From contig OX485804.1 in assembly GCA_950295325.1 (NCBI GenBank), positions 2,108,001 to 2,172,000 on the forward strand: a stretch of 64,000 nucleotides of DNA, read 5' to 3'. Under the pieces are notes generated by a model. That model did not search any database. It was not told the origin of the DNA and worked only from the letters and a program-made list of their open reading frames with translations. Shown here one piece after another: positions 25,236 through 59,318 of this stretch; positions within the stretch are counted from its first letter, which is position 1, and each line of letters opens with the position of its first letter. This DNA comes from Polytrichum commune (Eukaryota; Streptophyta; Polytrichopsida; Polytrichales; Polytrichaceae). A program made the translations under genes and the position numbers.

Positions 25236-25739
25236 TTATGAGTAGGGTGAAGTATAATGCTGCACATATGGATATTGTACGATGCCAACTGGATATTGCA
25301 GCACACACCCAGGAGGGTATGGCAGGTACCCAGGTGGATATGGCAGATACCCAGGTGGATATTGCACATATCCATGTACATCGTATGGAATTATATTTGG
25401 AGGCGGAGTATTGATGGCCGGAAGATGATCATGCATGGCTGGGAGCTGGTGTTGGTCAGGAGCCAGTGGCTGAAATGGTGTGTGGAATGGTGTGCCCTGC
25501 AACTGGTTGGGGGAGAAAATCTCTGCCAAAGGTGGTGAGGCGCCCGCTTGAGATTGCCCTCCTCCGACCATCTCTTGGTGGACATTCATGTTGCCGCCTT
25601 CACTCTGCACATCATCTAACACCATTGATGCCAACAAGTTAATTGCCATCGAGGATATGGCCCCATGGTGCTCATCAAAGAATTCACAGGCATGGCTAGA
25701 ACATGCATGGTTGTAACATGGTTGGACAGTAGAGGGCAT
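25236..25739 (-). CDS. Terminal exon of A1 with YPPGYLP repeats
   Basis: It opens with FDEHHGAISSMAINLLASMV, then LDDVQSEGG, a Gln/Pro-rich middle (SPNQLQGTPFH, LAPDQHQLPAMHDHLPAINT), and a tail in which YPPGYLP-type units are tandem: YPPGYLP, YPPGYLP, YPPGC, followed by VLQYPVGIVQYPYVQ. The homologous exon of B1 has more units. The EHH..SM.INLLA.....DVQ.EGG start is shared with unit 2 terminal exons, which lack the repeats. Pro/Tyr repeats of this sort are usually disordered. The acceptor site was not resolved. Confidence 0.55.
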   Translation of the reverse strand: MPSTVQPCYNHACSSHACEFFDEHHGAISSMAINLLASMVLDDVQSEGGNMNVHQEMVGGGQSQAGASPPLAEIFSPNQLQGTPFHTPFQPLAPDQHQLPAMHDHLPAINTPPPNIIPYDVHGYVQYPPGYLPYPPGYLPYPPGCVLQYPVGIVQYPYVQHYTSPYS

Positions 25740-26683
25740 TCACATGATCAATCCATTGATTGATTCAGGTATGTGCAATTTCACATGTTGACATTTTTAG
25801 AAGCAAGTAGATTCAGAACCTTTTTGAACCATACATACCCTCTAGGTATTTAGTTTTATTATTAAGGATTTTTTAGAATTTTTTTAGAATTTTTTAGACT
25901 CTCAACCCCTATTTTATAAGGTGAACGCAACTCTAGAACAATGTTGAGTCATTCTTAAGCATGTAATAGCACCTCCTAACCTGCATATCCTTAAGCCCAG
26001 TTTGACCCTAGGCTTCCTGCCGGTGCCATCCGGTAAAAATCTTGGGGTGTAATTAACCAACCCTATAAGCTAGGCTTTTGAATCCTATAACAAGATGAGT
26101 GATGAGAGACTAACAAGCTTGATGTTAAGCTACCACCAAGATTGTAACAAATTTAGCACAATTATTATTACATATCAAGATGGTTTTGTTGGGTAAAGTT
26201 ACATGTTGGGCATGGGGCGTTGGTGGATGCTCCTGGCTTCAACAATCGAACATTCTGCGACACGCGAGGTCGCCACACTTGTCGTGGTTGATTCAAGGAG
26301 TGTGGTGTGGGAATAGAATCCGGCACAATAACACCTATATAATAAACATGGGTCATCTGCAAATTAAGGCTTTGACAAGTTCATATTAAAGCATGAAAGT
26401 GTTATAATAAATTTAAAGTACCAAATACAAAAATAAGATATGATAAAACATTATAAAGCACATATTTTCATTGATAAGGTTTTGATAACACTAATTATGT
26501 CCAAAAAACCTCGCCACGTTTTGCTTGTGTTATTTTCTAGGCTCTAATTAAAAGATTAAAACTTTTGAACGGGCAGGACAATCTATGTACCCCAGGGCAT
26601 TCCACACCACCCTGCAGGTACATTCCTGTGACACCTATAACAACACCAATTGAAGGAAAATGGAGGCCCGCTTTTTAAGCAGG

Positions 26684-26760
26684 AAAAAGCTTTGAGGGGA
26701 GGGCTTTACAAATTTAAAGTTTTGTTCAAGGCTTCTTTGTTGTAAAGCCCTCCCCTCCAC
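26684..26760. repeat. Intron hairpin in A1 (18-bp perfect arms)
   Basis: GAGGGGAGGGCTTTACAA (26694-26711) pairs perfectly with 26740-26757. The B1 counterpart has 30-bp arms. Confidence 0.75.
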
Positions 26761-26933: not shown

Positions 26934-28145
26934 CTGTCAAATAAGACACGGTCCTCTATGGATGTGATTACTCTTCTTCTTGAGTTCTTTGCAATAAGAC
27001 CACATTCATTGAGAAAATAAGATTTGTGAAGGAAAAATAAGCATATTAAAAATAAAAAATAAATTGCTGATCAATTACAAAACGCATGTTGGCGCCCTGG
27101 AATAGAACCTGCGGTGTCTTGAAACCGTTTCCGAGCCTGGGCGCGGCGAGCCCGAGCCCGGCGAGCATTTCCTCTGCTCCTCTTTCTCCCGCCTTCAATA
27201 TCATCAGGACGTCGATCACTGGTATTGGCTTCCCCATGAGGAAAATCTGGTTTACAAGTTGCCATACTCGGCGCCCGCCCTGCAATTTTCAGATATGCAC
27301 CCCCACACAACTCCGCCTGATTAGTACCACTCATCGGTAACAACTGCAGCGGCAAATTATTCAAGTGACTCTGAGACAACTTTCACAGATTCACCTATGT
27401 AGCAAACCTGTACTCCAATCTTTGTTGGCCACAGAACTCATCAACCATACAATGTGTATTTAACGCCTCGTAAATGTAGATTGTGAAGAGAACAATGGAA
27501 AACTCCTGGTTGTGTACACCAAGCAGTGGTTGGATATTAATCCCGGCACACCCAGACTCCTGTCACGAGCATGGAAACTTTCCGGTATGGATAAAAATTG
27601 TGACTTGTAGGTCGAGGAGAGCCTTGTGCACCTACCGCAGAACTCACAAACATACATTTAGAAATAAAATATATTTTTTACTACTCATGTAATTGAAAAC
27701 AGCTTCAACTATGGAGATGGTGAAGCCTCCATATCTCAACTTGCTCTACACCTCCAACATATCTTCAAGAAGCTGCTCCGTGGGTGATGGATTCGGAGTT
27801 CCCCACCTAACTTAATTACTCTCAACTTTTGCGAACAAAGACAAGATCATATCGACAAATTTTTGAAGTGAAGGAATTATGCCTTCCTGTGCACGTATAC
27901 TCACCCCAAGCACAATGGTGATGATTACTTCAGCAATGTGTGTGCTGGTAATCCACTACACACATACTAGATATAAGAGATTGAAGTCTGGCATGTAAGC
28001 CGCAAGTACTGGGAGACAGCAAGTGCACGAGTACACAAACTGTTAAACCAGAACCCCGAGAATGAGAGAGCTCGAGAGAGAGGAGATGTTCAATTAATGG
28101 TGAGCGGTGGAAAGTTCCAGAAGAGAGAGAATATTATAAAAAAGA

Positions 28146-28330
28146 AGTTAACGTGCATTTGTGGCCTATAATTTCCCCTATGTGAGAGGACAAGGAGATT
28201 GACAGCATTAAACTTGAGCCTATCATCTGCCAGGGATCGGAATATACATGGAAATGCTTCTACCTGTGCATGCCTTGAACAATGTGCAAACATGTGAGTA
28301 ACCCAGATCATGCCAAAACTTAACATCAAC
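28146..28330 (-). promoter_or_regulatory. Conserved block of unit A1
   Basis: This is one of six copies of a block of about 190 bp (others: 35565-35755, 39445-39635, 48222-48405, 55375-55570, 58986-59178). In the minus sense it starts near GGCATGATCTGGGTTRCTCA and ends ACAAATGCACGTTAAC. It precedes a TATA-like/leader segment in every unit, so a promoter or first-exon role is plausible. Confidence 0.5.
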
Positions 28331-28499
28331 AACCAAATGATTGTACTGCTCTTCCCCTTTTGGGAGGACTTAAGCAACAACTTCTTGTGGACGCCGTCAC
28401 CATGTCTGTAGATACCTTGCTTCCATAACACTGTGGATGTTGCTCTTATCTTCAAGGTTTATCTTCAACTGTACAAACATTAGCTCACAAGGTATGATT

Positions 28500-31400
28500 C
28501 ACAGAAATTCATCACATGCCTTAGATGGTTAGTGCGGCTGATCCCAATTGGAATTTTGGGCGGTAGAATTGATGTGAATATTCTTGCAATTAGAATGACC
28601 CTAATAAAGTCAGAGCAACTTAGATCAGTTTTATCTGAACCTATCTTAGTCAGTTATAGGCTCAAGAAAAACTCTCTAGTATGTTTCTTCTTTCACTTCC
28701 CTTCAATGTGGATAGGGAGCCCTGTTATCTTGAAGTTGAATTCCTGGATTTCATCAAATCACACAAAGTACCAGTCACAAAAGAATGACTCTGTAATATC
28801 TCTTGCTCATTTACTTGTAGCTGCATGGTGGCTTCTACTTGGTGGAAACAGTGACATGAGTACTCATGCAATGATCAACATTTTCACAATAAAGTTGGGC
28901 CAACTTGGATCATGAATACCTAAGCTTGTCTGAGTTGGCTATGAACCTTCAAGGAAACTGTGGATAGAACCCGTACACCCTTAGATAGGGGTAGGCAGCC
29001 TCTAAGGGACCTCTTATTGAAGAGGTTCTCCATTTGCACTTGCTCCTGCTGAATCAAGAGCATACCTTGTTTATGAATCTTCAAGTCCCCCCCTCCCCCC
29101 GAAGAAAAAACAACCCTGTTTTGGATCACATAGTCTTCATAATACAATTTGCATTGGGTTCCCACATGACAATAGAGAAAAAGAAAAAGAAATGCTTTCA
29201 CTTTGAGAATCCATAGCTGATTCATAATCTTAGCTCAATAAATGACTGGACCTAAATCATGGGCACATATAATACAATCAATGCATGTTATCGCAAGTAC
29301 ACCTTGATATGACAAAAAGAAAAAGTTGTCAACTCTACCATTGGAAATAATCATGGAAGACATGTATGCAACCTTTCGTGACTCCTACATATAGTACCGT
29401 GGGTACACACTAATCTTAAAAACAAATATTAGAGTAAAACTGGACTAGCTAGTATGTGGAAGTTTAGGTTTTGTCCATACCTTCACTCCTTAAATCCAAC
29501 AAAATTCTTGAAGTGTGCAACATTGTGCTTGGGGACAAGAGATGTCATTAAGTTTTAAGCCTCGTGCTTCCTCACCCTTTCTAAACAAAGAGATGCCATG
29601 CTCCATGGGAATACCTTGCCACGACACTAAGATCATTTTGGCACACTACTAAGACTTCTAATCTAATGTTTATCATATTTTGAATACATAATCAAATCTC
29701 TTCTAAGTACGTGTCTTTTTGATATTTGTTCTTGGAACCACACCTAACTACATACCACTCAAATGTAAGTGTCCGATTAAGTTAAGTAGCATGGGATTTA
29801 GGCATGTCTACTATGCTTAATATAACAAGTAATCGGCTGCTTTTTATCATAAAGTTGACTGATCAATCCTTCAATAACATGCATATGCTTAGTTTTATAG
29901 ACTCAAACATATGAAATCGCTATGATCTTAGTAAAAATCCCAAAGTAGCTGCAATTGTTCTGGTGTAACCACCCAATTGAGTTTCATATATTGAGGACCT
30001 CATACTTTGAGTGATTATGGCTTCAACATTACTTAAGAATGCATTTTGTGACAATTCAGATAAAATATCCTGATTTTTTTTGGAAACACTCCAATGTCAA
30101 ATTTTAGTCAATGCCATGTGTCACACTGTCGCTGGTTGAGATCATCAATTAGCCTTTGTATGCTTTGACTTTGAATTCAAATCTCTTCATTTAAAATTTT
30201 TTTTGGGTGGTGGATGTTTGTGATTCAGCAAGATTTGAAGGGGCACATATCAGCTTAGATGATGATGTGCACTGATTCTGGTGCATGATATGTAAATTCA
30301 ATTACATTATTCATATCATGAATCATTTTCCAAACTGCAAAATAAGTACTATAGTAACAATCCCATAACAATAGCAAGAATAATTAAGTAATAAACACAA
30401 CTTAGATACTGAATTGAGATACAAGACTTGTTTAATCCTTGGTGAACTTGTGAGTGTAGACTTGTTTAGATTTGTAGGGATTTCATGTTGCCAATGGCTT
30501 TAAATTTGAGATTTGGAGAAGAGGTCGTCTTGGGCCTTGAACACTTTGTCTCCATAATCTATATTACAGCGTGCATGCTTTGATGATGTTGAAAACAATG
30601 TTGTGCAGGTATTACTTCTGAGCCATGCCTTAAGGTAGGGCATCCCACCCACTTTAGTGATTGCCAACCTTAGCCCTTCTTCCTTAGTGTAAATGAGATC
30701 GAATGTTGCATACCAAGAAAAACAAGAAGAAACATCAACTTTGTCATGAACATTGTCGTAGATGGTGCTTGCCTTATCTGCATTCTTTATGGCTTCCCCT
30801 ACACAATTTTAGCATAGTCAAAGAGACATTGCCAAATAGTTTGCATCACCTTCATAACATGACATTTGACATTGTTAAAGAATCATACTAAGGTCCTTTC
30901 TTGCAAGATTTCATAATTATGGTCCACAAAATAAACGATTGTCATTCCAATGGTAGAAAGAGAGATGACGCCAAGTAGAGGCTGGCGTGAATGAAGAACG
31001 CTTCACCTTGATCACAGCTGTGAGCTCAACGTATGTGAACCCAAAGTGGTAACGACCCTCCATTCATTGAGTGGAGCTATGTGACAAGTGCCATTGCCTC
31101 CTGTCGGAGGAATTGGTCCCTAAAATTGGTGGCTAGGTCCAAAGGAATTAATATAATTATGGGTTGTGTGTTCGTGTGAGCACCTTGGGGTTGGATGTTA
31201 TGTTGGCAAGATGGCTACACTTATGATCCCAAGGTATAATTCAAAGGCTATGAGGTCCCTTTTGAGGTCATAGTGTTAACAATACCAATAGAGAGGTCTT
31301 GAGGTTAGACTCTCTCCTCTTGATTCTACAATCCCACAAGATTCAATGAGCAATTATAGTTTTTTTTTTGTTTTGTTTTGGTGATAGCAATAAGTTCACA

Positions 31401-32381: not shown

Positions 32382-32780
32382 CTATTCCAGTTGGACATTC
32401 AATAGTGCACATTCCAAATGTGGAATGTTCACATAGGGGGGATAGTACAGCACACCCTGCTCAACATGCGGACATTGCACAACAGCCGGTTGATAGGAGG
32501 GAATGTTAATAGGCGCACTTCTGCCTGTGAGATGATCTGCATGTTGTTCAATCAGCATGTTGGAAAATGGAGGAGGTTGGGATCCCTGCACATCTTGATC
32601 ACTTCGGTGTATCATTTGAATTGGCTGAGCTGGTGCTTGCCACTGGTTGGGGCCTAAAACATCTCGCGAAGATGTTAAGGATTCTAGTCGAGGTGTTGGT
32701 GCTAAGGATTTTGTCCGAGGAGCTTGCCCTGTGCGACTGCTATTTGGGATGCCTCCTTCACCTTGCACATCATCTGCCAT
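32382..32780 (-). CDS. Terminal exon of A2
   Basis: It reads DDVQGEGGIPNSS, then a Pro/Gln-rich stretch (LGPNQWQAPAQPIQMIHRSD, GSQPPPFSNMLIEQHADHLT) and ends YYPPYVNIPHLECALLNVQL. The start SMVINFLA is out of frame by one base in this copy. It is homologous to the A1/B1 terminal exon but has no YPPGYLP array. Confidence 0.5.
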   Translation of the reverse strand: MADDVQGEGGIPNSSRTGQAPRTKSLAPTPRLESLTSSRDVLGPNQWQAPAQPIQMIHRSDQDVQGSQPPPFSNMLIEQHADHLTGRSAPINIPSYQPAVVQCPHVEQGVLYYPPYVNIPHLECALLNVQLE

Positions 32781-33897: not shown

Positions 33898-34264
33898 CAA
33901 CAAGTGATCGGGGCCGGGCCTCAGTGGATGATATTATTGGCGTCGGCATTTGATAATTATTCTTTGTGACCACCTGCACGCGGGGACGCCAATCATTCTC
34001 TTTCGAAAGACCATCGTGCATTGTTGCGATGCACTCGTGCATCATTTTCATCCCTTTAGCCAGCCGCCTGCAAAATAGGCGATGAGCCCGAGCCGAGCGT
34101 GCCGCTTCCTTCCGCCTCTTATATGCGAGGTAGACTCTCTCTGCTCCATCACTTGTCATAATGCCGATACTCGCTTCAGCTGGATCATGGGTCGACATAC
34201 TTTTCCTCCGCCCTGCAGCAAACATCCATACGTGCTCCTGCTGATTAGTAACACTCCCCGCCAA
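33898..34264 (-). CDS. Basic exon of A2 with strong splice donor
   Basis: The frame reads NQQEHVWMFAAGRRKSMSTH, then YKRRKEAARSARAHRLFCRR, KMMHECIATMHDGLSKENDW and RPRVQVV, ending RPRSLVG at a textbook donor GTAAGTT (33897-33891). The stretch KRRKEAARSARAHRLFCRRLAKG is highly basic. Positions 33677-34125 are identical to copy B, including about 220 bp of intron. The upstream part is frameshifted in A2. Confidence 0.55.
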
Positions 34265-35564: not shown

Positions 35565-35755
35565 CGTTAACGTGCATTTGTGGGCCCATAAGTTTTCCCC
35601 GATGTGTCAGGACAATGAGCTTGACAGTATTCAATCTGAGGCCGCCATCTGGCAGCAAGCAGAATATTATTCATAGAATTGCTACTACTAGCTGTGTGCC
35701 TTGAACAATGTGCGAACATGTGAGCAACCCAAATCATGCCATAACTGAACATTCC
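35565..35755 (-). promoter_or_regulatory. Conserved block of unit A2
   Basis: In the minus sense it carries a 61-codon ORF starting MFSYGMIWVAHMFAHCSRHT and ending GKTYGPTNAR, nearly the same as in A3 and B3. It ends at ATGCACGTTAACG. Confidence 0.5.
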
Positions 35756-35999
35756 GCTACAAATTTCATGTACGACTCTTATCCTTATTACCTATTCGAG
35801 AGAACTTGAGCGACAACTTTTGGTGGATGCACTGTTCGTATATACTTTGCTTCCCTGACACTGTAGATGTTGCTTTTGTCTTCAAGGTTTATCTTTGAGG
35901 GTTCAGAATTACCTCACAAGGTACGAGTCACATAAGGTGTAAGTTAGTACATCATTGCATGCATTAGATGGCCGTTTCTGCATGGAATTTGAACTTTGG

Positions 36000-37711
36000 T
36001 GGTAGAATGGGTAATATGGATATATTTGTGTGATTTGTATTTTTCTCTAGTGAAGTCAAAGCAACTTGGGTCATGTTTTTCTGAGCTTGTATGAGTTAGT
36101 GACGATATGTCTATTAATTGAAAACCGGACTTTCTTTTCTTCAAATTTCCTTCAACGAGGATGTGGCTCTCATATTAGGCTTCAAGTACAATTTACTGAG
36201 TCTACATAATCACACAAACTAAGATTCATGTATTTCACAATGTGGTTACTTTGAATAATATATGGTTACATTGAAGGCATGTAATTGAGCTAGCCCAATG
36301 CCCTCGGAAAGGATGGGAGTACACCTTATATTGCATCTTGGTCGTACATGACCAATACAAGGAAAATAAATTGATATTCGTGTCAATGCTTGAACACTGA
36401 GATTGCTTTTTCTTTTTTTATTATTATTAAAGAGTGTATTTTAATTAGATGATAAGCATCGAGGACATTTAAAACAAGACATGTGATTCTAAAATGAACA
36501 GGTTTTAAAAATGGTTGTCAATTTACAACTTCCTAGATTTTGCATTCGAGAATGAAGAGACATGCTCCACTTCAGATTTTGATCACTTTAAAATCAATGT
36601 CCATTTTAGGCTCACATATCTTAGACTATATCCATATGATGAAATTATTTTCCAGACAAAAAATGCTCACTATAATAATTATTGTAGTACAAAGAACTAT
36701 GTAAATAATAGAAACAACCATTGAGTAAATTTAATCAGATGCAAAACAAATTCAATTTGTGTTGAACTTGTGAGTGTCCAAATTTGTAGGGATTTAAGTT
36801 TTCCAGTGGCTTTTGAGATTTGGAGAAGGAGTCTCTTAGAGGTCTTAAAAAATGATTTCCATAATCTACATGATTGCAAGTTTTATGTTTTGATGTTTAA
36901 ATATTTTTGGTGTTTCCTTAGCTATCATTTTGGGCCATGTCTTGAAGCAAGTCGTCATCTCCACTTTGGTGGTTGATCCTTAGCCCTTAGACCTAACCAG
37001 TCCTTAGTTCTAAATACTTTAAATGAGTCTTGTTACATACTACTGAAGGTCTTTACTAGGAGTGATAATAAACAAAGCCACCAACCCCCCCCCCCACCCA
37101 ACCTCACCCATGGCATGAAACTGAGTTGCTTTACACCTTGTGCATTAAGCTCATACTCTAAGCCATCTTCGGTTTATGGACTTAAGTTATGCACCAAGTG
37201 CTATTGCTTTCTAACAAAGGTCATTTCTATTGAGTGATAATAAGGGCCCAGGTGGGAGAAAGGGGAGGAAAGGGGGAAGGGTTGGGGGTGGTACGGTCCA
37301 TTTTTCATTTTTTTAAGGGGTAGGCCTCAAGGGTGCACTCATGGGGTCAATGTAGAATAATCTATATACAACGGAAGACATGGTGATGATGGAGGTGAGG
37401 CCATCACCATGTTGGTCCCCACCGTTTATGTGAGACATTCCTAAAGAGGGGAGAAAGAAAGAAAGAAAGAACGAAAAGAATGTAAGTGAAAGAGAAAAGC
37501 TACAACATGAGCATGAGTAGGCCCCTATTAAAAACATTTTGGGGCATGCCCACATTCTATTGGATAACAATATAAGTCCTATGCACCCTATAATCATGTT
37601 GCAAAGGCAAGTGCTCGAAATAATATAAATTTGTGAGGTCTGCCAAATTTAGTTTTTGGATGCCCATTCGATTACATATTATTGTGTGTATTTAGGTTTG
37701 GTCATTTATAT
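36000..37711. other. Spacer between units A2 and A3
   Basis: Matches 55800-57490 of copy B. No gene is supported. A run of C (about 37087-37099) and an AGAA/GAAA microsatellite (about 37451-37480) occur. Confidence 0.4.
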
Positions 37712-38295
37712 AGAAGGGTGCAAGCATGGTAAAGTGGACCCAAAAAGTGCTCCGGTATACTAAAACCATAATTTTTTTGGTCAAAGGTGAAAAGTAATAG
37801 CAAAGTATTATTTAAATTATATTTCTTTTCATCATGACCTTTGTTGTTGTGTTAAATACTCAAATGAAAAAAGTCAAGTTGATATCTCCAATACTAATCA
37901 TTAAAAGTGATGCTGAAAAGCACATGGTTGAGTCTGGTTTTGGAAATAGATTTCATGACCTTAACTATTTTGAAGTTGGAATTTTCTTTCATATTCCTTG
38001 AATTTGTCATCTAATTAAAACCACCAATTTAATGTAATTTTATGGTACTTTAAACAAATTTTAGATAGTCACTTGTTCAATATCACCACTTCTAACATAC
38101 TCTAAAATATTTAGACTTTTCTTGGAATTTTTTATGTCATGATAATTTTCTTGGCTTTGTAGATCAATATGTTTTTATATGTTTATGAGTTTTTTCTTCA
38201 CAAAATTCAAAGTTCGTGTGTAGTTTTGAATCACTTTCACTCAACACTAGGCAAAGATCAAAACATGTCCATTATGTTGTGCTTGCGCTCAGAAG
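37712..38295. mobile_element. TIR element, GGTGCAAGC family, copy 2, in copy A only
   Basis: The element (about 37716-38290) starts GGGTGCAAGCATGGTAAAGT and ends GTGCTTGCGCTC. It is flanked by AGAAG (37712-37716 and 38291-38295). Copy B at the same place reads TATATAGAAGACTACATATA uninterrupted (about 57495-57514), the empty site. The interior aligns with the element at 18683-19286 over most of its length (e.g. GATTTCATGACCTTAACTAT, TGGCTTTGTAGATCAATATG). The right end is more degraded than the left. The insertion is younger than the duplication, or was lost cleanly from B. Confidence 0.85.
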
Positions 38296-38813
38296 ACTTC
38301 ATATTTTGGCCCGGATGAATCAATGCACTAAAAACATTAGATGCACTAGCAACACACAATATGCTATTTGGGTCATATCAACTTATAGGGTTAGGGTTCT
38401 CACGGATTAAGGTTTAAAGTTGCTACTGATTTCTTTGCATACACAACATCCTCAAGACAATGGCCAACAACTAACAACACACACTTCACAAAAACAATGG
38501 GAATTGCTCACACTGCCACAAAACATTTTGTATGCATAATCCTCTAGGAGACGGTATCATGATGGCACACAATGTACACACACACGGTGCACTTCAAAAT
38601 AATCTACAACCTCATCGGAGCCCAAAATATCTACAAGAACAAAACTACCATGCATTGAACATCTCCAATATTAAGGTCCAAAACATTCCTCCCTCACTGA
38701 TCTCCAAAACTCAACTCCAACACCAGCAACAAGCCTTAAGCTACAACCATGGACGGAAGAACTGAGGATGCCACACTATAGAAGCAACAACCTTAAGAAA
38801 CTTTCAAACTTGC
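38296..38813. other. 3' region of unit A3
   Basis: Matches 57515-58025 of copy B. It is likely the 3' UTR of the F-box-like gene; no polyadenylation signal could be fixed. Confidence 0.4.
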
Positions 38814-42097: not shown

Positions 42098-42117
42098 TGG
42101 AGGGTAGATGGTAGACA

Positions 42118-43942: not shown

Positions 43943-43980
43943 AGGATCGTAACTAAATATCTAGTTATGTAATATGTCTA

Positions 43981-45700: not shown

Positions 45701-46644
45701 ATGATCAATCCATTGATTGATTCAGGTATGTGCAATTTCACATGTTGACATTTTTAGAAGCAAGTAGATTCAGAACCTTTTTGAACCATACATACCCTCT
45801 AGGTATTTAGACTATTTAGTTTTATTCTTAAGGATTTTTTTGAATTTTTTTTGAATTTTTTATACTCTCAACCCCTATTTTATAAGATGAACGCAACTCT
45901 AGAACAATGTTGAGTCATTCTTAAGCATGTAATAGCACCTCCTAACCTGCATATCCTTAAGCCCAGTTTGACCTTGGGCTTCCTGTCGGTGCCATCTGGT
46001 AAAAATCTTGGGGTGTAATTAACCAACCCTATAAGCTAGGCTATTGAATCCTATAACAAGATGAGTGATGAGAGACTAACAAGCTTGATGTTAAGCTACC
46101 ACCAAAGATTGTAACAAATTAAGCATAATTATTGTTACATATCAAGATGGTTTTGTTGGGTAAAGTTACATGTTGGGCATGGGGCGTTGGTGGATGCTCC
46201 TGGCTTCAACAATCGAACATTATGCGACACGCGAGGTCGCCACACTTGTCGTGGTTGATTCAAGGAGTGTGGTGTGGGAATAGAACCCGGCGCAATAACA
46301 CCTATATAATAAACATGGGTCATCTGCAAATTAAGGCTTTGACAAATTCATATTAAAGCATGAAAGTGTTATAATATAAGTACCAAATACAAAAATAAGG
46401 TATGATAAAGCATTATAAGGCATGTATTTTCATTGATAAGGTTTTGATAACACTAATTATGTCCGAAAAATCTCGCCCCGTTTTTCTTGTGTTATTTCCT
46501 AGGATCTAATTAAAAGATTGAAATTTTTGAACGGGCAAGACATTCCATTTACCCCGGGCCATTCCACACCAACCCGTAGGTACATTCCTATGACACCTAT
46601 AACAACACCAATTGACAGGAAATCGGAGGCCCGCTTCTTAAGCA

Positions 46645-46732
46645 GGGGAAAGCCCTAAGGGGGCGGCTTTACAAATTTCAAGTTTTGTCCAAGGCTAGAC
46701 TGTTGTAAAGCCCTCCCCTCAAGGCTTTCCCC
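46645..46732. repeat. Intron hairpin in B1 (30-bp arms)
   Basis: 46645-46674 (GGGGAAAGCC..GGCTTTACAA) pairs with 46703-46732, 3 mismatches, 28-nt loop. It lies in the segment between the basic and ..WRPRV.. exons. Confidence 0.75.
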
Positions 46733-48221
46733 TTGCACCTAAGACCCGTCCATAACAAGAATGATAATTATTTTTATCCTTTTATTATGCATTATGCATG
46801 AAAAATATGGAAGTCAACTATGTCAAATAAGGCATTTGTCTCAAAAGAAAATGAAAAACAGAAAAAGAAGAAAATGAAGAACACACAGAAAAAACAAATA
46901 ACTAACTGTCAAATAAGACACGGTCCTCTATGGATGTGATTACTCTTCTTTTTCTTGAGTTCTTTGCAACAAGACCACATTCATTGAGAAAATAAGATTT
47001 GTGAGGGAAATATAAGCATATTAAAAAACAAAAATAAATTGCTGATCAATTACAAGACGCATGTTGGCGCCCTGGGGATTAGAACCTGCGGTGTCTTGAA
47101 ACCATTTCGGAGCCTGGGCGCGGCCAGCCCGAGCCCGGTGAGCATTTCCTCTGCTCCTCTTTCTCCTGCCTTCAATACCATCAGGACGTCGATCACTGGT
47201 ACTGGCTTCCCCTTCAGGAAAATCTGGTTTACAAGTTGCCATGCTCGGTGCCCGCCCTGCAGTATTCAGATATGCACCCCCACACAACTCCGCCTGATTA
47301 ATACCACTCATGGCTTACAGCTGCAGCGGCCAATTATTCAAGTGACTCTGAGACAACTTTCACAGATTCACCTAAGTAGCAAACCTGCACTCGAGTCTTG
47401 TGAGTGGGTACACAGACAAGAAGTTCGTTCTGGTGTCGCGATCCTCTGAAGCAAGAGCGACTGCCCAAAATTCACAAAACGACTCCAATCTTTGTTTGCC
47501 ACAGAAATCATGAACCATACAATGTGCATTTAATGCTTCATAAATGCAAAATGTGAAGAGAACAATGGCAAACTCCTGGTTGTGTACACGGAGCAGTGGT
47601 TGCATATTAATCCCTGCACACCCAGACTCCTGCATGTCACGAGCATGGAATCTTTCCGGTATGGACAACAATTGTGACTTGTAGGTCGAGGAGAGCCTTG
47701 TGCACCTACCGCAGAACTCACAAACATACATTTAAACATAAAATAAAAGTTTTACTACTCATGTAATTGGAAACAACATCAACTATGGAGATGGTGAAGC
47801 CTCCATATCTCAACTTGCTCTACACCTCCAACATATCTTCAAGAAGCTGCTCCGTGGGTGATGGATTCGGATTCCCCCACCTAACTTAATTACTCTCAGC
47901 TCTTGCGAACAAAGACAAGATCATATCGACAAATTTTTGAAGTGAAGGAATTATACCTTCCTGTGCACGTATACTCACCCCAAGCACAATGGAGACGATT
48001 ACTTCAGCAATGTGTGTGTTTGTAATCCACTACACACATACTAGATATAAGAGATTGAAGTCTGGTATGTAAGCCGCAAGTACTGGGAGACAGCAAGTGC
48101 ACGAGTACACAAACTGTTAAACCAGAACCTCCAGAATGAGAGAGCTCGAGAGAGAGGAGATGTTCAATTTATAGTGAGCGGTGGAAAGCTCCAGAAGAGA
48201 GAGAATATTATTAAAAAAGAA

Positions 48222-48405
48222 GTTAACGTGCATTTGTGGCCTATAATTTCCCCTATGTGACAGGACAAGGAGTTTGACAGCATTAATCCTGAACCTACCA
48301 TCTGGCAAGGATCGGAATATACATGGAAATGCTTCTACCTGTGCATGCCTTGAACAATGTGCAAACATGTGAGTAACCCAGATCATGCCAAAACTTAACA
48401 TCAAC
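48222..48405 (-). promoter_or_regulatory. Conserved block of unit B1
   Basis: Counterpart of 28146-28330; ORF start reads MLSFGMIWVTHMFAHCSRHA, after which units 1 diverge from units 2 and 3. Confidence 0.5.
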
Positions 48406-48574
48406 AACCAAATGATTGTACTGCTCTTACCCTTTTGGGAGGACTTAAGCGACAACTTCTTGTGGACGCTGTCACCATGTCTGTAGATACCTTGCTTCCA
48501 TAACACTGTGGATGTTGTTCTTATCTTCAAGGTTTATCTTCAACTGTACAAACATTAGCTCACACGGTATGATT

Positions 48575-51500
48575 CACAGAAATTCATCACATGCCTTAGA
48601 TGGTTAGTGCGGCTGATCCCAATTGGAATTTTGGGTGGTAGAATTGATGTGAATATTCTTGCAATTAGCATGACCTTAATTAAGTCGGAGCAACTTAGAA
48701 CAGTTTTATCTGAACCTGTTTTAGTTAGTTATAAGATTAAGCAAAACTCTCTAGTATGTTTCCTCTGTCACTTCCCTTCAATGTGGATGGGGAGCCCTGT
48801 TAGCTTCAAGTTGAATTCCTGGATTTCATCAAATCACACAACTTACCGGTCACAAAAACATGACTGTAATATCTCTTGCTCATTTCCATGTAGCTGCATG
48901 TTGCCTTCTACTTGGTGGCAACAGTCATATGAGTACTCATCCAATGATCAACATTTTCACAATAAAGTTGGGCCAACTTGGATCATGAATACCTAAGCTT
49001 GTATGAGTTGGTCATGAATCTTCAAGGAAATTGTGGATAGAGCCCATGCACCCTTAGATAGGGGCAGGCAGCCTCTAAGGGACCTCTTTTTGAAGAGGCT
49101 CTCCATTTGCTCCTGCTGAATCAAGAGCCTACCTTGTTTATGAATCTTCAAGTGCCCTCCCTTCCCCCCAGAAAATAACAACCCCATTTTGGATCACATA
49201 GTCTTCATAATACAATTTGCATTGGGTTCCCACATGATCATAGAAAAAAAGAAAAAGAAATGCATCCACTTTGAAAATCCATAGCTGATTCATAATCTTA
49301 GCTAAATAAATGACTGAACCTAAATCATGGGCACATATAAAACAATCAATGCATGTTATCGCAAGTACACCTTAATATGAGAAAAAGAAAAAGTTGTCAA
49401 CTCTACCATTGGAAATAATCATGGAAGACATGTATGCAACCTTTCGTGACTCCTACATGTAGTACCGTGGGTACACACTAATCTTAAAAACAAATATTAT
49501 AGTAAAACCGGACTAGTATCTGGAAGTCTAGGTTTTGTCCATAGCTCCACTCCTTAATCCAACAAAATTCTTGAAGTGTGCAACATTGTGTGTGGGGACA
49601 AGAGATGCCATTACATATTTAAGCCGCATGCTTCCTCACCCTTTCTAAACAAAAGAGATGCCATGCTCCATGGGAATACCTTGCCACCACACTAAGATCA
49701 TTTTGGCACAGACTAAGACTCCTAATCTAATGTTTATCATATTTTGAGCACATAGTCAAATCTCTTCTAAGCATGTGTTTTTTAAATATTTGTTATTGGA
49801 ACCACACCTAACTACAAACCACTGAAATGTAAGTGTCCAATTAAGATAAGTAGCATGGCATTTAGGCATGTCTACCTTCATATAATAAGTAACCGGCAGC
49901 TCTTTATCATAAAGTTGACAAATCAATCCTTCAATAACATGCACATGCTTAATTTTATGGACTCAAACATATGATAAAGCTATGGTCTTAGTAAAAATCC
50001 CAGAGTAGCTGCAATTGTTCTGGTGTAACCACCCAATTGAGTTTCATACATTGAGGACCTCATACCTGGAGTGATTACAGGTTGCATGAACGGCTTCAAC
50101 ATTACTTACAAATGTATTTTGTGACAATTCAGATAAAATGTCCTGTTTTTTTTAATTGGAAACACTCCAATGCCAAATTTTAGTCTAATATGCCATGTGT
50201 CACACTGTTGTTGGTTAGGATCATCAATTCGCTTATGTGGTCTCAGGAGCTAACCTTGTCTGCTTTGAGTTCGAATTTAAATCTCTCCATTTTTCTATTT
50301 TGGGTGGTGGATGTCTATGATTCAGCAAGATTTGAAGGGGCACATATCAGCTTAGAAGATGATATGCACTGATGCTGGGCCCATGATCTGTAAATTCGAT
50401 TACATTATTCATATCATGGATCATTTTCCAAACTGCAAAATAAGTACTATAGTAACAGTTCCATAACAATAGCAAAAATTATTAAATAATAGACACAACT
50501 AAGTTCTTGAAATGAGACACAAGACTTGTTTCATCCTTAGTGGACTTGTGAGTGTACACTTGTTTAGATTTGTAGGGATTTTGTGTTGCCAATGGCTTTA
50601 AATCTTGAGATTTGGAAAAGAAGTCACCTTGGGCATTGAACACTTTGTCTCCAAAATCTATATGATTACAATTTACAGTGTGTATGTTTTGATGATGTTG
50701 AAAACAATGTTGTGTGGGTGTTACTTTTGAGCCATGTCTTAAGGCAGGGCATCCCACCTACTTTAGTGGTTGTCAAACCTTAGCCCTTCGTCCTAAGGGT
50801 AAATGAGATCCAATGTTGCATACCAAGAAAAATAAGAAGAAATATCAAATTTGTCATGAACATTGTCATAGAGAGAGCTTGCCTTATCTGCATTCTTTAT
50901 GACTTCCCCCCAAACAATTTCAGGATAGTCAAAGAGATATTGCCAAATAGTTTGCATCACCTACATAACATGACATTTGATATTGTTAAAGGTACTAAGG
51001 TCCTTTCTTGCAAGATTACATAATTATGGTCCACAAAGTAAATGACTGTCATTCCAAAGATCCCATGGTAGGAAGAGAGATGATGCCAACTAGAGGCTGA
51101 CGTGAATGAAGAACGCTTGATCACAACTATGAGCTCAATGTATATGAACCCAAATTGGTAACAACCCTCCATTTATTGAGTGGAACTATGTGACAAGTGC
51201 CATTTCCACTTGTCGGAGGTACCAGTCCCTACACCCGGTGGCTAGGTACAAAAGGAACTAATATAATTGTGGGTTGTGTGTTCGTGTGAGCACCTTGGGG
51301 TTCGATGTTATGTTGGCAAGATGGCTACACTAATGACCCCATGGTATAATTTAAAGGCTATGAATTATACAATCCCACAAGATTCAATGAGCAATTACAG
51401 TTTTCTCATAGCAATACATTCACAGGTGTGACATTACTCATTGCTTTCAAATTTTTGAATCTAGCTCTCCAAGAGTTGACTGCGATCCCCTTGTGCCAAA

Positions 51501-51710
51501 GAGCCCAACTTAATGGAGAAACCATCTTGGTTGCTCCTCATTTTATTGCACACATTTATAGGGGCAGAGGGGGTGACCCTCCCTTGTAGACATATGTACC
51601 CCAGGGGCCAGGAGGCAACTTCTCATCATAATCACAGAGGAGGTTACTTTCTTTAGAACTTGGCCAATGATCTGCAAAATCATTTTGAAGAAGCATGATT
51701 TTGGAATTGA
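48575..51710. other. Spacer between units B1 and B2
   Basis: Counterpart of 28500-31692, several small indels. No gene is supported. Confidence 0.4.
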
Positions 51711-52190
51711 TGTTGAATAGTTGTCCATGATCAACAGACAGAAGCAAAATTCTCCTCAAAAGAACAGAGAGGACGAAGTTACACAATAGGAGGCGCCATC
51801 CCAGTTCTCTACACAAGTTTTTGCTTGACATTTCTTGTGTCCAGCATACAAAGGCCTAAGGACACTACCATAGAATACCTAACATCGATTTAGCTTAATT
51901 TGTTGGACTACAACCACGACTATATTTAGAACAAACCGTGTCACGTAATTGAGCTTTACTAAAGCTCTGGAAAATCCAGTTTGCAGATCCCACAAAGTAC
52001 CTATACTCAATGCAAATTCACATGGTGCTTGAATGAACTAGCAAGTTCACCAGGCTCGTCAAAATTCCCATTGTTGGAGTATTAGCACTACTGAAATGTA
52101 GCTTGAGCCTTAGAGCTCGGACCTGAAGTCTCATCACAGTTAAGGAAATCCAGGAGTCTGGTTCCACAATTACATAGGTAGCTATTTAAT

Positions 52191-52634
52191 CTATTCCAGT
52201 TGGACATTCAATAGTGCACATTCCAAATGTGGAATGTTCACATAGGGGGGATAGTACAGCACACCCTGCTCAACATGCGGACATTGCACAACAGCCGGTT
52301 GATAGGAGGGAATGTTAATAGGCGCACTTCTGCCTGTGAGGTGATTTGCATGTTGTTCAATCAGCATGTTGGAAAATGGAGGAGGTTGTGATCCCTGGAC
52401 ATCTTGATCACTTTGGTGTACCATTTGAATTGGCTGAGCTGGTGCTTGCCACTGGTTGGGGCCTAAAACATCTCGCGAAGATGTTAAGGATTCTGGTCGA
52501 GGTGCTGGTGCTAAGGATTTTGTCCGAGGAGCTCGCCCTGCGTGACTGCTATTGGGGATGCCTCCTTCACCTTGCACATCATATGCCACCATGCATGCCA
52601 AAAAGTTAATTACCATTGAGCCCAACTTGGCCAC
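52191..52634 (-). CDS. Terminal exon of B2
   Basis: Reads VAKLGSMVINFLACMVAYDV, QGEGGIPNSSHAGRAPRTKS, a Pro/Gln-rich middle and YYPPYVNIPHLECALLNVQL before the stop. The first residue of this frame is a GTG codon, so it is an exon interior, not a start. Nearly identical to A2 after DVQGEGG. Confidence 0.55.
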   Translation of the reverse strand: MAKLGSMVINFLACMVAYDVQGEGGIPNSSHAGRAPRTKSLAPAPRPESLTSSRDVLGPNQWQAPAQPIQMVHQSDQDVQGSQPPPFSNMLIEQHANHLTGRSAPINIPSYQPAVVQCPHVEQGVLYYPPYVNIPHLECALLNVQLE

Positions 52635-53710
52635 ATGGTGCAGTGCTCATCACAAGAAGGCTGGGGTGGGGTGTAAGCAAACTAGATAACTTTGGAGGTC
52701 CCACAGGGTTTATTGGGCATCAAATATTTTTCTTCCTCTCTTCTAGACCCTCCGATCATGGAGATCGACGGTTTAGGTTGAAGGCATGGGAAAGAGAGGG
52801 TAATGTTATGTGGAAGGCATCCTCTTCCACAATCTAGAATGCAACCTAATGCACCAAATGTTAATGAATAGCTTACTTATCATCAGTTAATTGTCAGATC
52901 CAGCTACAAGAGCTCTTAGAAATTCACAGTAATCTATATCAGGATTTAGATGTTGTTTAGCACATTTCAACTATCAATATGATGTTTGACATCCAGTGTA
53001 TATGCACATGGCTATTGAATAATGTGAATGTGCTATTCAAATTGAGAAACGTTGACAATTTCACATTGCCCATAACACAGATTGATTTCTTATAGAAATC
53101 CATCTCCTCGCACATTGATGTACAACCCCCTTCAAATGGTCCTCATGTGAATAACCTGATTGTTGACCTGGGTCTCCCATTCAAACTAGCTGTTTCAAAA
53201 TCGCTTCTTCTGTTGTTTCTAATGACTTCATAATTTCCTACCTCACAAAGAGGACCAACATGCTTGGACATCAGAGGGCAATGACAACATCAATCCATTC
53301 ATACGGCTTGTGTGTAAATTAGAGATATAGGTTTACACTTTCAAACCGAGTAGATTCTGCAATTTTTTTCTGAAGCAGGGCCCTTTAGGTACTAAATTCC
53401 ATTTCCAAGAAAATTATGAAATTTCTTAGAATCTGTAGACGTCTTATCTTACTAAACACAAAACAAACCTAACCAATTCTTTGAACCAGCTTCTCAATTC
53501 TGCGATCCTCACCCTTGGGAGATTAATTGGCTACAAGACATTGAGCTGTGTGAGATTGACAGGCTTGATGTTAAGCCCATGTTAAGCCACCACCAAGATG
53601 AGCTATGTGAGATTCACGTTAACAGGCTTGATGTTAAGGTACCACCAAAGATCATGTCTCTGGGCACAATTGCAGCTGCACATTAAGGTGGTTTCACTCC
53701 GTGAACTTAC

Positions 53711-54230
53711 CAACAAGTGATCGGGGCCGGGCCTCAGTGGATGATATTATTGGCGTCGGCATTTGATAATTATTCTTTGTGACCACCTGCACGCGGGGAC
53801 GCCAATCATTCTCTTTCGAAAGACCATCGTGCATTGTTGCGATGCACTCGTGCATCATTTTCATCCCTTTAGCCAGCCGCCTGCAAAATAGGCGATGAGC
53901 CCGAGCCGAGCGTGCCGCTTCCTTCCGCCTCTTATATGTGAGGTAGACTCTCTCTGCTCCATCACTTGTCATAATGCCGATACTCGCTTCAGCTGGATCA
54001 TGGGTCGACATACTTCTTCTCCGCCCTGCAGCAAGCATCCATGCGTGCTCCTGCTGATTAGAAACACTCACCGCCAATAGCTGATTCAGAAGATCGTTTA
54101 TGTGGTCCTCTTGACAATTATGAGAACTGGCATGGAATTTATGTAGCAAACTTTCACAATGATGGGTGGAGGGAAAGGAAAAAAATACGAACTGAGAATG
54201 ACATGATGTGCCATACGAACCATCAACCAT
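53711..54230 (-). CDS. Basic exon of B2, intact
   Basis: Open for about 173 codons, from MVDGSYGTSCHSQFVFFSFP through HNCQEDHINDLLNQLLAVSV, NQQEHAWMLAAGRRRSMSTH, YKRRKEAARSARAHRLFCRR and KENDWRPRVQVV to RPRSLVG at the donor GTAAGTT (53710-53704). The CQ..H.N.L..QLL..S..NQ.E pattern is shared with the unit 1 basic exon (SQSHLNNLPLQLLPMSGTNQ). The Arg/Lys-rich segment could be a nuclear-localisation or nucleic-acid-binding region (inference). No known domain recognised. Confidence 0.6.
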
Positions 54231-55374
54231 AGGACACGTAGGCTAGATTTTGGACACGGGGTTGCCCCGAGAAGAATGATAAATCTGCACGTCAGTTTAT
54301 TGAGGAGAAATGTGCTTATATACAAAATCTCAGCTTGTAATGAAGACTCCGGGAAAATAAAACGACTGGAAATGTATACCACAGAAACCGTCAGCCATGT
54401 ACATTCTTTTGAAATTTATGGGTAGGTAGCAAGGAGAGAGACAAAATATGGTGAGGTTTAGTATTATGAGCAGGTCAATCGACAGGAATTTATGATGACT
54501 TACTTCAACAATGAAGGTTACTGAACAAACCGAGAGAAGATACAAGGGACATTAACATCTGGCACCAGCTATGTGTGTTCTGGTCATTAGGTTGTGAATA
54601 GAACATTACCAGAATCAGCACATGAGCTTGATGGTGATCACGTAGATAGGCAGGAACTTATGATGCAGCAAACTTCCACAATGATTAAAGGAAACACAAC
54701 AAGAAAACGACCGATTCAAATGTTTGCGACAAAACCACTGTGTTTGTAACTTGCAGGTTTGAGGAAAACCTCCTCTGCCTACCACAAAAATCACAAATTT
54801 TTTAAAAATAAAGTTTCACTCATGTAGTTGGAAACAACCTTCCCTGGCGAGATGATGAACACTATACCTGGTCTACAACTCCGACACATACACAAGAAGA
54901 CAAAACTCCATGGATGGAGGATTCAATTTTCCCCACCTATTAGGTGATTTCTATCAACTCTTGCGATCAAAGACAAGATCGGCAACTTGCAACGTGGAGG
55001 AGTTATTCCTTCCCATGCACGTTAACCCATCCGCACACACTGTAGCAGAAAATCCGTTAATAAGGGCTTCAACAATCTGATGTACGTAATCATCATCCTT
55101 GATCCACAACAAGCAAATTAAATCAGAGACAATTTCAAGCCTAAAAACCCATTACTAAATTCAGGTGGCTCATGTGAATTCGTTGGGAACTCCATCCATG
55201 CTCAAGGGGCAAACTTCCATACCCGAAAAAGTCACCACAAGTACTTGGAGAGTTGTGCAATAACAAGAGTACACACAGGCACCATAAAATCAGAGAGGAA
55301 AGTGCACACAGAGATTCAATCAATAACGAGCGGAGGAAAGTTCCAGAATAAAGACAATGTAAATGAAGGAAAGG

Positions 55375-55570
55375 CGTTAACAACTTAACGTGCATTTGTG
55401 GTCCCATAAGTTTTCCCGTATGCGTCAGGACAATGAGCTTGACAGAATTCAATCTGAGCCCAGCATCTGGCAGCAAGCAGAATATTATCATAGAATTGCT
55501 ACTACTAGCTGTGTGCCTTGAAGAATGTGCGAACATGTGAGCAACCCAAAACATGCCAAAACTGAACATT
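55375..55570 (-). promoter_or_regulatory. Conserved block of unit B2
   Basis: Aligned to the other five blocks; the ORF begins MFSFGMFWVAHMFAHSSRHT and shifts frame after SNSM. Confidence 0.45.
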
Positions 55571-55799
55571 CCGCTACAAATTTCATGTACTACTCTTACC
55601 CTTTCGAGAGAACTTGAGCGACAACTTTTGGTGGACGCACTGTTTGTATATACTTTGCTTTCCTGACACTGTGCATGTTGATTTTTTCTTCATGGTTTAT
55701 CTTCGAGAGGTCAGAATTACCTCACAAGGTACGAGTCACATAAGGTGTAACTTAGTACATCATTGCATGCTTTAGAGGGCTGTTTGTGCGTGGAATGTG

Positions 55800-58025
55800 A
55801 ACTTTGGTGGTAGAATGGGTATCATGGATATTTGTGTGATTAGTATTTCTCTAGTGAAGTCAGAGCATCTAAGGTCATGTTTTTATGAGGTTGTATGAGT
55901 TAGTTACAATATGTCTAATTGAAAACTGGACTTTCCTTTCTTTCAAGTTCCTTCAATGAGGATGGGGCTCTCATATTAGACGTCAAGTTTGAGTCTACTT
56001 AACCATACAAAGTGAGATTCATATATATCACAGTGAGGTTACTTTGAATATATAGTTACATTGAAGGGACATAATTGAGCCCAATGCCCTCCAAAAGGAT
56101 GGTAGTACATCTTATGTTACATCTTGGTTGCACACAAACAATACAAGAAGAATAAACTCATATTCATGTCAATGCTTGAACAATGAAATTATTTCTTCTT
56201 CTTTTTTTATTAAGGAGTTCATTTCAATTAGATGATAAGCACCAATGACATTTAACAACAAGGTATGTGATTTTAAAATGAACAATTTTTGAAATGGTTG
56301 CCAATTTACAACTTTCCTAGATTTGCATTCTAGAATGAAGAGATGTGTTGCACTTCAGATTTTGATCACCTTAGAATCAGTGTCCATTTTAGGCTCACAT
56401 ATTTTAGACTATATTCATATGATGAAACTATTTTCCAGACAACAAATGCTCACTATAATAATTATAATACAAAGAACTATGTAAATAATAGAAACAACCA
56501 TTGAGCTAATTCAATCCGTACTAAACTTGTGAGTGTCCAGATTTGTAGGGATTTCAGTTTTCCAATGGCTTTTGAGATTTGGAGAACGAATTTTTTAGAA
56601 GTTTTAAAAAATCATTTTCAAGATCTACATGATTGCAAGTTTCATGTTTTGATGTTTCTTCAGCTATTATTTTGGGCCATGTCTTGAAGCGGGTCATCAT
56701 ATCCATTTTGGTGTTTGATGCTTAGCCGTTAGCCCTTACTAGTCCTTAGTTCTAAGTACTTTAAATGAGTCTCATTAAATAGTGAAGGTCTTTAGTGGGA
56801 GTGATAATAAATGAAGCCACCCCCCCCTCCCCCCCCCCCAACCCACCCCACCCCACCCCACCCCACCCCACCCATGGCATGAATCAGAGTTGCTTTATGC
56901 CTTATGCATTAAGCTCGTACTCTAACCCATGTTAGGTTCATGGACCTAAATTATGCACCAAGTGCTATTGCTTTCTAACAAAGGTCGTTTCTATTTGGTG
57001 ATAACAAGGGCACCAAAGGAAGAAAGCGAAGGAAAGGGAGAAGGGTTGGAGGTCATGGGGTCCGATTTTGGTTTTTTTAAGGGGTAGGACTCAAGGGGTG
57101 CACTCATGGGGTCAATGTAGAATAATCTATACACAACAGAAGGTGTGGTGATGGTGGTGGTGAGGTCATCACCCTATTGTTCCCCACCGTTTATGTGCAA
57201 CATCCCAAAGAGAGAAGATAGAAAGAAAGAAAGAAAAAGAAAAATATATATCTAAATGTAAGAAAAAAACTAGAACATAAGGATGAGTAGGCTCCTATTA
57301 AAAACATTTTGGGGCATGCCTACATTTTATTGGATAATACTAAAAGCCCTATGCACCCTACAGTCATGGTGCAAAGGCAAGTGCTCGAAAAAAACCTTTC
57401 TAGTGCATGATATAATTTCGCAAGGTCCGCCAAATTAAGTTTTTGGACACCCATTCAATAATGTATTTTTGTGTGCATTTAAGTGAGGTCATTTATATAG
57501 AAGACTACATATATTGATCCCGATGAATCAATGTGCTAAAAGTATAAGATGCACTAGCAACACACAATATGCTATTTGGGTCATATTAACTTATAGGGTT
57601 TAGGGTTCTCATGGATTAAGGTTTAAAGTTGCCACTTATTTCTTTGCATACACAACATCCTCAAGACAATGGCCAACAACAAACAACACACACTTCACAA
57701 AAACAATGGGAATTGCTCACAATGCCACAAATGTTTTGTATGCACAATCCTCTAGGAGATGGTATCATGATGGCACATAATGTACACACACAGTGCACTT
57801 AAAAATAATCTACAACCTCATCGGAGCGTCAAATGTCTACAAGAACAAAACTAGCATACATTGAACATCTCCAACATTAAGGTCCAAAACATTGCTCCCT
57901 CGCTGATCTCCAAAACTCAACTCCAACACCAGCAACAAGCCTTAAGCTGCAGCCATGGAAGGAAGAACTGAGGATGCCACACTATAGAAGCAACAACCTT
58001 AAGAAACTTTCAAACATGCTTGTCC
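55800..58025. other. Spacer between B2 and B3 with C-rich tract
   Basis: Counterpart of 36000-38813 without the TIR element. No gene is supported. The last 500 bp are probably the 3' UTR of B3. Confidence 0.4.
56820..56874. repeat. C-rich tract with CCCCA tandem repeats
   Basis: Runs of 6-10 C are followed by at least five CCACC/CCCCA units. The minus strand therefore has more than four G-runs and could form a G-quadruplex. The copy A counterpart (about 37085-37110) is much shorter. Confidence 0.85.
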
Positions 58026-58361
58026 TCATCCCTTAGTTGCATCTCCACCCATTGGGGCGGAATTGAAGTAGTTTTCCAATGCCTGCATTTCCTTGTCATG
58101 GTTAGGGTTGGGCTCCAAACTCTCACCCAAAACCCTCAAACCAAAAAAAGCAGCCCGTGCAGCATAGCGTTGGTTGGCTCGCATTGCTTGATATCGGGCA
58201 AGCCACTCTGGATGATTTCTAATCATCCGGCTCCAAGTAGTGCTCACAAGACGGAGCTTAGACAATTGAGCAGTAACCTCATCAAATGTACCTTCCAAAA
58301 TCACCTTCAAAATGTGTTCCAAGAAGAGGTCCTCTGGAATGGGAGGTAAAATAGAGCCCAT
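58026..58361 (-). CDS. F-box-like protein of unit B3, intact (111 aa)
   Basis: The ATG at 58361 opens MGSILPPIPEDLFLEHILKV. The domain continues ILEGTFDEVTAQLSKLRLVS and TTWSRMIRNHPEWLARYQAM, and the protein ends NSAPMGGDATKG. LPxxPEDLxLEHIL.....L..LRLVSTTW..MI...PEW follows the F-box pattern at residues about 5-55. F-box proteins normally dock a substrate to the SCF ubiquitin ligase through SKP1; that role is inferred. No C-terminal LRR, kelch or other substrate domain follows, so it is short for the family unless spliced onward. The frame is open upstream (SFAVGRRGSPQL) through an acceptor-like GCTGTAG|GTAGG at about 58391. It is the only unit with start, F-box and stop all intact. Confidence 0.7.
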   Translation of the reverse strand: MGSILPPIPEDLFLEHILKVILEGTFDEVTAQLSKLRLVSTTWSRMIRNHPEWLARYQAMRANQRYAARAAFFGLRVLGESLEPNPNHDKEMQALENYFNSAPMGGDATKG

Positions 58362-59318
58362 ACTGATGAGTTGAGGAGAGCCTCTCCTACCTACAGCAAA
58401 ACTCACAAAAACTATAACTATAAAGTTTCACTCATGTAGTTGGAAACACCTTCCCTGGTGAGATGATGAAGACTATTTTTTTTCTACAACTTAGACATAT
58501 CCACCAGAAAAGAAAACTCTGTGGATGGGAGATTCTGTTCTCCCCAGCTATTAACTGATTACTCTCAACTCTTGCAACCAAGGACAAGATCTCCAACTTG
58601 CAACATGGAGGAGTTATTCCTTCCTGTGCACACTAACCCACCCCATATAGGGTAGCAGAAAATCCATGAAGACTTCAACATTTTGATGAGTGTACTCATG
58701 CAGCATCCTTGATACACAACAAGCAAATTTCATCAAAGACAATTTCAAGCCTAGAAACACAATACCCAATTCAAGTCGCTCATGTGAATTCACTGCAAAC
58801 TCTATCCTTGCTCAAGGGGCAAACTCACATACCCGAAAAAGTCACAAGAAGTGCTTGGAGACTTGTGCACAAGTACACATGAATACAGAAGACACCATAA
58901 ATTCAGAGAGGAGAGTGCACAGAGAGATTCAATCAATGATGAGTGCAGGAAAGGTCCAAAATAAAGATAATGCAAATGAAGGAAGGTCGTTACCGTGCAT
59001 TTGTGGGCCCATAAGTTTTCCCCGATGTGTCAGGACAATGAGCTTGACAGAATTCAATCTGAGGCCGCCATCTGGCAGCAAGCAGAATATTATTCATAGA
59101 ATTGCTACTACTAGCTGTGTGCCTTGAACAATGTGCGAACATGTGAGCAACCCAGATCATGCCATAACTGAACATTCCGCTACAAATTTCATGTACAACT
59201 CTTATCCTTACCCTTTGGAGAGAACTTGGGCGACAACTTTTGGTGGACGCACTGTTCGTATATACTTTGCTTCCCTGACACTGTGGATGTTGCTTTTGTC
59301 TTCAAGGTTTATCTTTGA
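58362..59318 (-). promoter_or_regulatory. Upstream exon, conserved block and leader of B3
   Basis: In transcript order: exon about 59318-59212 reading KINLEDKSNIHSVREAKYIR, TVRPPKVVAQVLSKG and ending at donor GTAAGG (59211-59206); conserved block 59178-58986 with an open 61-codon ORF (MFSYGMIWVAHMFAHCSRHT..); leader 58985-58400; acceptor near 58391. The relation between first exon and F-box exon (one transcript or two) cannot be decided from sequence. Confidence 0.5.

Follow-up and report, generated by a model that had tools for sequence, protein, structure and literature searches.

Six related units, all on the minus strand, were identified by self-BLAST and genome search in the analyzed window, a stretch of 64,000 nucleotides of Polytrichum commune DNA (contig C2, positions 2108001-2172000; coordinates given below are those of the window, unless a contig is named). 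The genome searched amounts to 408 Mb in seven large contigs. The units reside in the two copies of a ~20-kb tandem duplication, delimited by self-BLAST and sliding identity, which span residues 21198-40852 and 42093-61652, respectively. The copies are 88-93% identical by ungapped segment. Each holds a unit A, a unit B and a unit C, so that the six units make up three pairs (A1 and A2, B1 and B2, C1 and C2). The sequence pattern described in the original prediction, six minus-strand units sharing a 5' block, is real, and the view of a tandem and decaying array is supported; the six units are not independent, however, the A, B, C trio having been copied en bloc. The plant locus amounts to a small tandem array, which is apparently lineage-specific.

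Other features were noticed in the window. A ~570-bp insert at 37716-38286 is found in the first block copy only, and has relatives at 18687-19286 and in a locus of contig C6 described below (L001, residues 232-842). At the empty site, 5 bp are duplicated; the insert may be a solo LTR. Residues 3280-3999 and 16662-17381 form an inverted pair (720 bp, 99.3% identity by self-BLAST), suggestive of a recent transposition or duplication. A transposase matching the Pfam DDE_1 domain (E 5.7e-39), which we take to be Pogo/Tigger-like, is encoded by residues 11872-13393 of the minus strand, with a weak HTH piece under cut-off (E 0.017) upstream. Ribosomal protein L3 is found as a single uninterrupted frame at 1321-2601, minus strand (Pfam E 3.8e-190), presumably an intronless gene or a retrocopy.

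The 5' block of unit C2 (58990-59650), a putative promoter/first-exon region, detected eight matches when used as query against the genome; six lie in the window, the remaining two being pieces on contig C6. The other five blocks, located in A1 (28148-28656), B1 (35567-36228), C1 (39447-40104), A2 (48223-48737) and B2 (55385-55974), all on the minus strand, are 71-92% identical to it (E ≤1.9e-62), the A units at 71%. A second leader block, placed by self-BLAST and alignment at 58370-58645 (minus strand) in C2, ends ~10 nt before the ATG of the C2 ORF. It is common to five of the six units, and absent from C1 according to self-BLAST. Of the first exon, block, leader and acceptor held to be common to all units, the 5' block is indeed found in 6/6, but leader block and acceptor are missing in C1. 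The sole match of the 5' block outside the array is a diverged partial relative on contig C6 (L001, 4741797-4743187), whose alignment starts on the promoter side and includes the second leader block, and in which the A or B exon proteins found no convincing match (best E 0.30). A weak match at 74.97 Mb of contig C1 (E 0.007), lying by eye among retrotransposon-like ORFs, was dropped.

Aligned across seven sequences (A, B, C and C6), the 5' block has a mean column identity of 77%. Neither this block nor the second leader block matched Rfam, and the predicted fold of the first-exon block is no better than those of its shuffles (z -0.64); a structured-RNA reading of the 5' block was rejected on these grounds. 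The second leader block (58370-58645, minus strand) folds better than 200/200 shuffles (z -2.7). A conserved SAC51-type uORF in the 5' block was also discarded, because the peptide frame breaks between units, being interrupted in B1, C1, C2 and C6 relative to A1, A2 and B2, and because the A units match the query at 59-63% of amino acids, as against 71% of the DNA. In the simplest view, the 5' block would correspond to a promoter plus 5' leader.

Units A and B each carry a basic ORF and a terminal Pro/Tyr-rich ORF, as originally proposed. In the exon-join models of B1 and B2 the basic coding exon (33898-34225 and 53711-54038, respectively; minus strand), ending at a GTAAGT donor, joins the terminal exon (32382-32761 and 52191-52570; minus strand), preceded by a TGCAAG acceptor, in phase 1, to give an intact 235-aa basic, Pro/Tyr-rich protein. 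Splicing and start codon, the latter chosen by the analyst, are predicted from the sequence, and linkage to the leader is putative. The SM.INLLA..DVQ motif was formerly regarded as part of the terminal exon; since in B1 and B2 the GTAAGT donor joins in frame with the TGCAAG acceptor inside this segment, most of the motif probably belongs to the 3' end of an intron. B1 and B2 differ by 4 changes in the basic exon and 12 in the terminal exon, a similarity too great for a selection test to be informative. Residues 33363-34114 and 53176-53927 are 97-100% identical, intron included, the flanking windows being 89-96% identical; because the intron lies inside the tract, recent gene conversion is possible, as is constraint. 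A further tract, 24987-26355, is 95-99% identical between the block copies. Conversion and constraint are indistinguishable by sliding identity in both tracts.

The A units look partly decayed. According to the ORF list, A1 has its basic ORF at 27071-27382 and its terminal ORF at 25236-25739, A2 at 47021-47311 (from its ATG) and 45149-45721, all on the minus strand. In A2, a dispersed repeat (46286-47079), recognized in the genome search as two end pieces with many matches, lies beside the basic exon and abuts the end of the B-homologous part. By the analyst's reading, the AG/GT donor of the basic exon does not connect in frame with the terminal ORF in either A1 or A2, and a weaker GTAATT site downstream would do so only in A2. 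The A1 and A2 basic exons are set apart by 12 nonsynonymous and 2 synonymous changes (pN 0.070 > pS 0.037), the terminal exons, which contain no internal stop, by 6.5 and 4.5 changes, respectively (pN 0.024, pS 0.054). Homology between A and B is weak (blastp E 2e-6 for terminal, 0.003 for basic exons). No Pfam family reached the cut-off in the A and B exons scanned, a set which left out the B1 exons. The exon DNA of A2 and B2 matched the array only (best 40 of 81 and best 40 of 79 candidates, respectively), if one sets aside 126 bp of leader on contig C6 and the repeats that lie in introns or beside the A basic exon. The earlier failure to assign the exon set to a named family holds for the A and B exons, as judged by Pfam and best-candidate genome matches; the F-box-like part is repeat DNA.

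The F-box-like ORF is found only in the C units. Unit C2 holds an open 111-aa frame at 58026-58361 (minus strand; ORF list, survey and substitution pattern), corresponding to B3 of the original prediction, and confirmed as the only intact one. In C1, the homologous segment (38291-39119, minus strand; self-BLAST and survey) has an internal TGA, and a single ~330-bp deletion removed leader block, acceptor and ATG: C1 is broken. No trace of an F-box-like exon was detected in A or B units by self-BLAST or genome protein search. Plant F-box genes in tandem arrays undergo birth-and-death turnover, and this array is likewise tandem, open and broken copies being mixed; by eye, the 'LP..P.DL...IL ... 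LRLVS..W' pattern of the C2 ORF is F-box-like. Unlike plant F-box genes, the ORF is part of a repeat, contains no further domain detectable by Pfam, and scores 13.4-13.8 bits (C2, 13.8) against PF00646, under the gathering cut-off of 20.5 bits; the HMM search with B3 thus yielded no F-box match at cut-off, and F-box membership is not established by it. PF00646 matched 0/13 relatives in alignment A5, from which the off-frame row L029 was left out. In a sequence search of solved structures, the profile had no match and the C2 ORF one chance-level match, no F-box relative being retrieved. The C2 protein detected 59 places in the genome, C units included, none of which, by eye, overlaps the 126 places detected by the F-box model (best 150 of 252 candidates). 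F-box domains adopt a three-helix, SKP1-binding fold; an F-box/SKP1 role for the C2 ORF would be a guess based on its likeness in sequence.

The F-box-like DNA of the C units belongs to a transposon-like repeat with upstream transposase remnants. It was found in at least 46 genome stretches, two of which are the C units (best 40 of 47 candidates). The C2 stretch matching the repeat (57277-58367, minus strand; genome search and alignments) includes the ORF and the 3' region down to the common 3' end of the copies. Unit C holds only this 3' ~1.1 kb, starting near the ATG. Copies L013-L016 align mutually over 1.9-2.8 kb, the alignments setting out far upstream of the ORF and running towards the common 3' end. 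Nine translated upstream pieces were scanned against Pfam; a SWIM-like zinc finger was found, under cut-off, in L014 (E 0.0029) and L015 (E 0.0051), nothing credible in the remaining seven. The L015 piece matches a large dispersed family including many 455-aa open frames (at least 150 matches, best 150 of 1220 candidates). L042, a copy of this young family, has two long ORFs of 481 and 455 aa; in Pfam, only the latter matches SWIM, and weakly. The family is abundant, L042 residing at 1.42 Mb of contig C2 and another copy, L043, at 18.93 Mb of contig C7. The L042 ORFs match L013 in colinear blocks (24-37% amino-acid identity, E 2e-6 to 3e-61), and the transposase remnant so defined in L013 stops ~270 bp before the F-box-like ORF.

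Mutator-like transposons encode a transposase with a SWIM zinc finger (PF04434), have inverted terminal repeats and give rise to short duplications of the target site. The repeat is akin to them in being dispersed and multi-copy, with long transposase-like ORFs, and through its young relatives, which have two long ORFs, the second matching SWIM weakly. Its place among them is tentative: PF04434 scored under cut-off in all three matching proteins (E 0.003-0.08, 13-17.6 bits vs. 19.6), no terminal inverted repeats were found, and the F-box-like ORF is absent from the two young-family copies read (best E 0.79). The 3' terminal motif of the repeat is unrecognisable in C2 within 3 mismatches.

The ORF was surveyed in 30 copies, 10 cut from the DNA-match list and 20 picked from the DNA and protein lists. 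In-frame stops were found in 27 copies, and in neither C2, L005 nor L006. L005 and L006 share an 8-nt deletion near the C-terminal end of the ORF, and L006 has a 2-nt insertion in addition; indels were scored against C2, which lacks them by construction. L005/L017 (contig C2, 51.19 Mb) is a second copy of the unit C fusion. It carries the leader (58935-58393) at 90% identity. Its ORF is preceded by an insert of ~130 bp, and its first-exon region is reduced to 34 bp. On account of the deletion, the insert and the near lack of a first-exon block, this fusion copy may not be expressed.

The comparison of C2 with L005, one of 19 pairs, gave a dN/dS of 0.18 over 98 codons, with 7 synonymous and 5 nonsynonymous changes (p 0.006). 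Measured against neighbouring noncoding DNA of the same pair (67/705 changes), nonsynonymous changes are scarce (5/231; Fisher p 9e-5), synonymous changes not significantly different (7/63; Fisher p 0.66). The deficit of nonsynonymous relative to noncoding changes suggests that the C2 protein has been kept by selection behind the leader of the array. This signature of purifying selection after fusion comes from 12 changes between two sequences, a single informative pair, L006 being a near-copy of L005 and hence not independent. Of the two outcomes held to speak against the original prediction, the absence of an F-box match at cut-off was found, but dN/dS was not near 1 in C2 vs. L005. C1 and C2 likewise differ less in the ORF (7/300 positions) than behind it (36/526) or in the 5' part (89/1118), although by dN/dS this pair alone indicates no constraint (0.65, p 0.45). 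Ratios between repeats vary from 0.40 (L007/L008, p 0.007) and 0.49 (L007/L010, p 0.043) to 0.50 (L010/L012) and 0.74 (L009/L011), the latter two not reaching p 0.05; these values are compatible with an ORF already coding inside the transposon.

Unit C2 is probably a host-transposon fusion gene, set behind the leader of the array. Units A, B and C would stem from the duplication of one ancestral gene, endowed with a 5' region of its own, before the 20-kb block duplication doubled the trio. Unit C would have taken up the 3' portion of an ancient transposon from a SWIM-like transposase family, which carried the F-box-like ORF. Through this fusion the ORF, complete with its ATG, would have come to lie immediately behind the array leader, to be driven by the array's promoter. 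There the ORF would have stayed open and its amino acids been kept, which is what makes a fusion gene most likely, while most of the dispersed copies read gained in-frame stops. A deletion broke the C1 fusion, an intact protein of 235 aa can still be modelled in both B units, and the A units look partly decayed. The direction of capture, from repeat to unit C, as well as promoter use and expression, are inferred. Host-transposon fusion genes are domesticated transposon ORFs. C2 resembles them in having a constrained-looking transposon ORF behind a host leader, against 27/30 read copies with stops; it differs in that the ORF is the small one beside the transposase, not a transposase domain, and in being predicted only.

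The capture may have run the opposite way, unit C or its ancestor being the original F-box-like gene, from which the transposon stole the ORF. The three stop-free copies among the 30 read (C2, L005 and L006) would fit this history, as would the absence of the ORF from two young-family copies, and the homology to C2 begins in many repeats within ~13 nt of the ATG, much as at an exon edge. The homology runs, however, from the ATG through the ORF and the 3' region to the same 3' end as in the repeats; ending there, unit C seems to contain the end of the repeat. Two of the four informative repeat-repeat pairs (L007/L008 and L007/L010) also show a coding-type synonymous excess, and theft from the host is unlikely. 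A non-coding array is rather improbable; it would yield a spliced RNA, conserved at its 5' end, with fast-changing downstream exons whose ORFs are chance frames or relics. The 77% mean column identity of the 5' block across A, B, C and C6, set against A and B exons only weakly alike, is in keeping with such an RNA, as are the folding of the second leader block (better than 200/200 shuffles, z -2.7), the excess of pN (0.070) over pS (0.037) in the A basic exon and the lack of clear constraint in the A and B pairs; but Rfam gave no match, substitutions in the C2 ORF are of the coding type, and the 235-aa frame spanning the intron is preserved in both B units.

The single family with three coding exon types, of which units lost different exons, put forward in the original prediction, is strongly weakened and now very improbable. 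The first 5' block is indeed common to all six units, and A exons are related to B exons (terminal E 2e-6, basic E 0.003). The F-box-like exon, in contrast, is untraced in A or B, its DNA is that of a dispersed, transposon-like repeat, and Pfam F-box scores are under cut-off (13.4-13.8 vs. 20.5 bits, 0/13 relatives), so that a family combining the three exon types, F-box included, did not hold up. A more far-reaching version of the host-transposon fusion is a long shot: a plant DNA-transposon lineage would have carried an F-box-like accessory protein beside its SWIM-type transposase, perhaps redirecting an SKP1-type ubiquitin ligase of the host against silencing factors, and one host locus would then have kept the ORF under a tandem-gene leader as the transposons themselves decayed.

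The fusion gene remains the preferred reading, and the best account of the sequences is a small orphan array, one unit of which would have become a fusion gene with a constrained F-box-like ORF. On this reading, what appeared to be a new F-box family would be a transposon ORF that the host has probably retained. A single genome offers the fusion in an open form (C2), a broken form (C1) and a dispersed copy (L017), beside 27/30 read copies with stops, and units B leave an orphan, predicted two-exon protein. The array is also a warning that F-box exons read by eye in plant arrays can be repeat tails.
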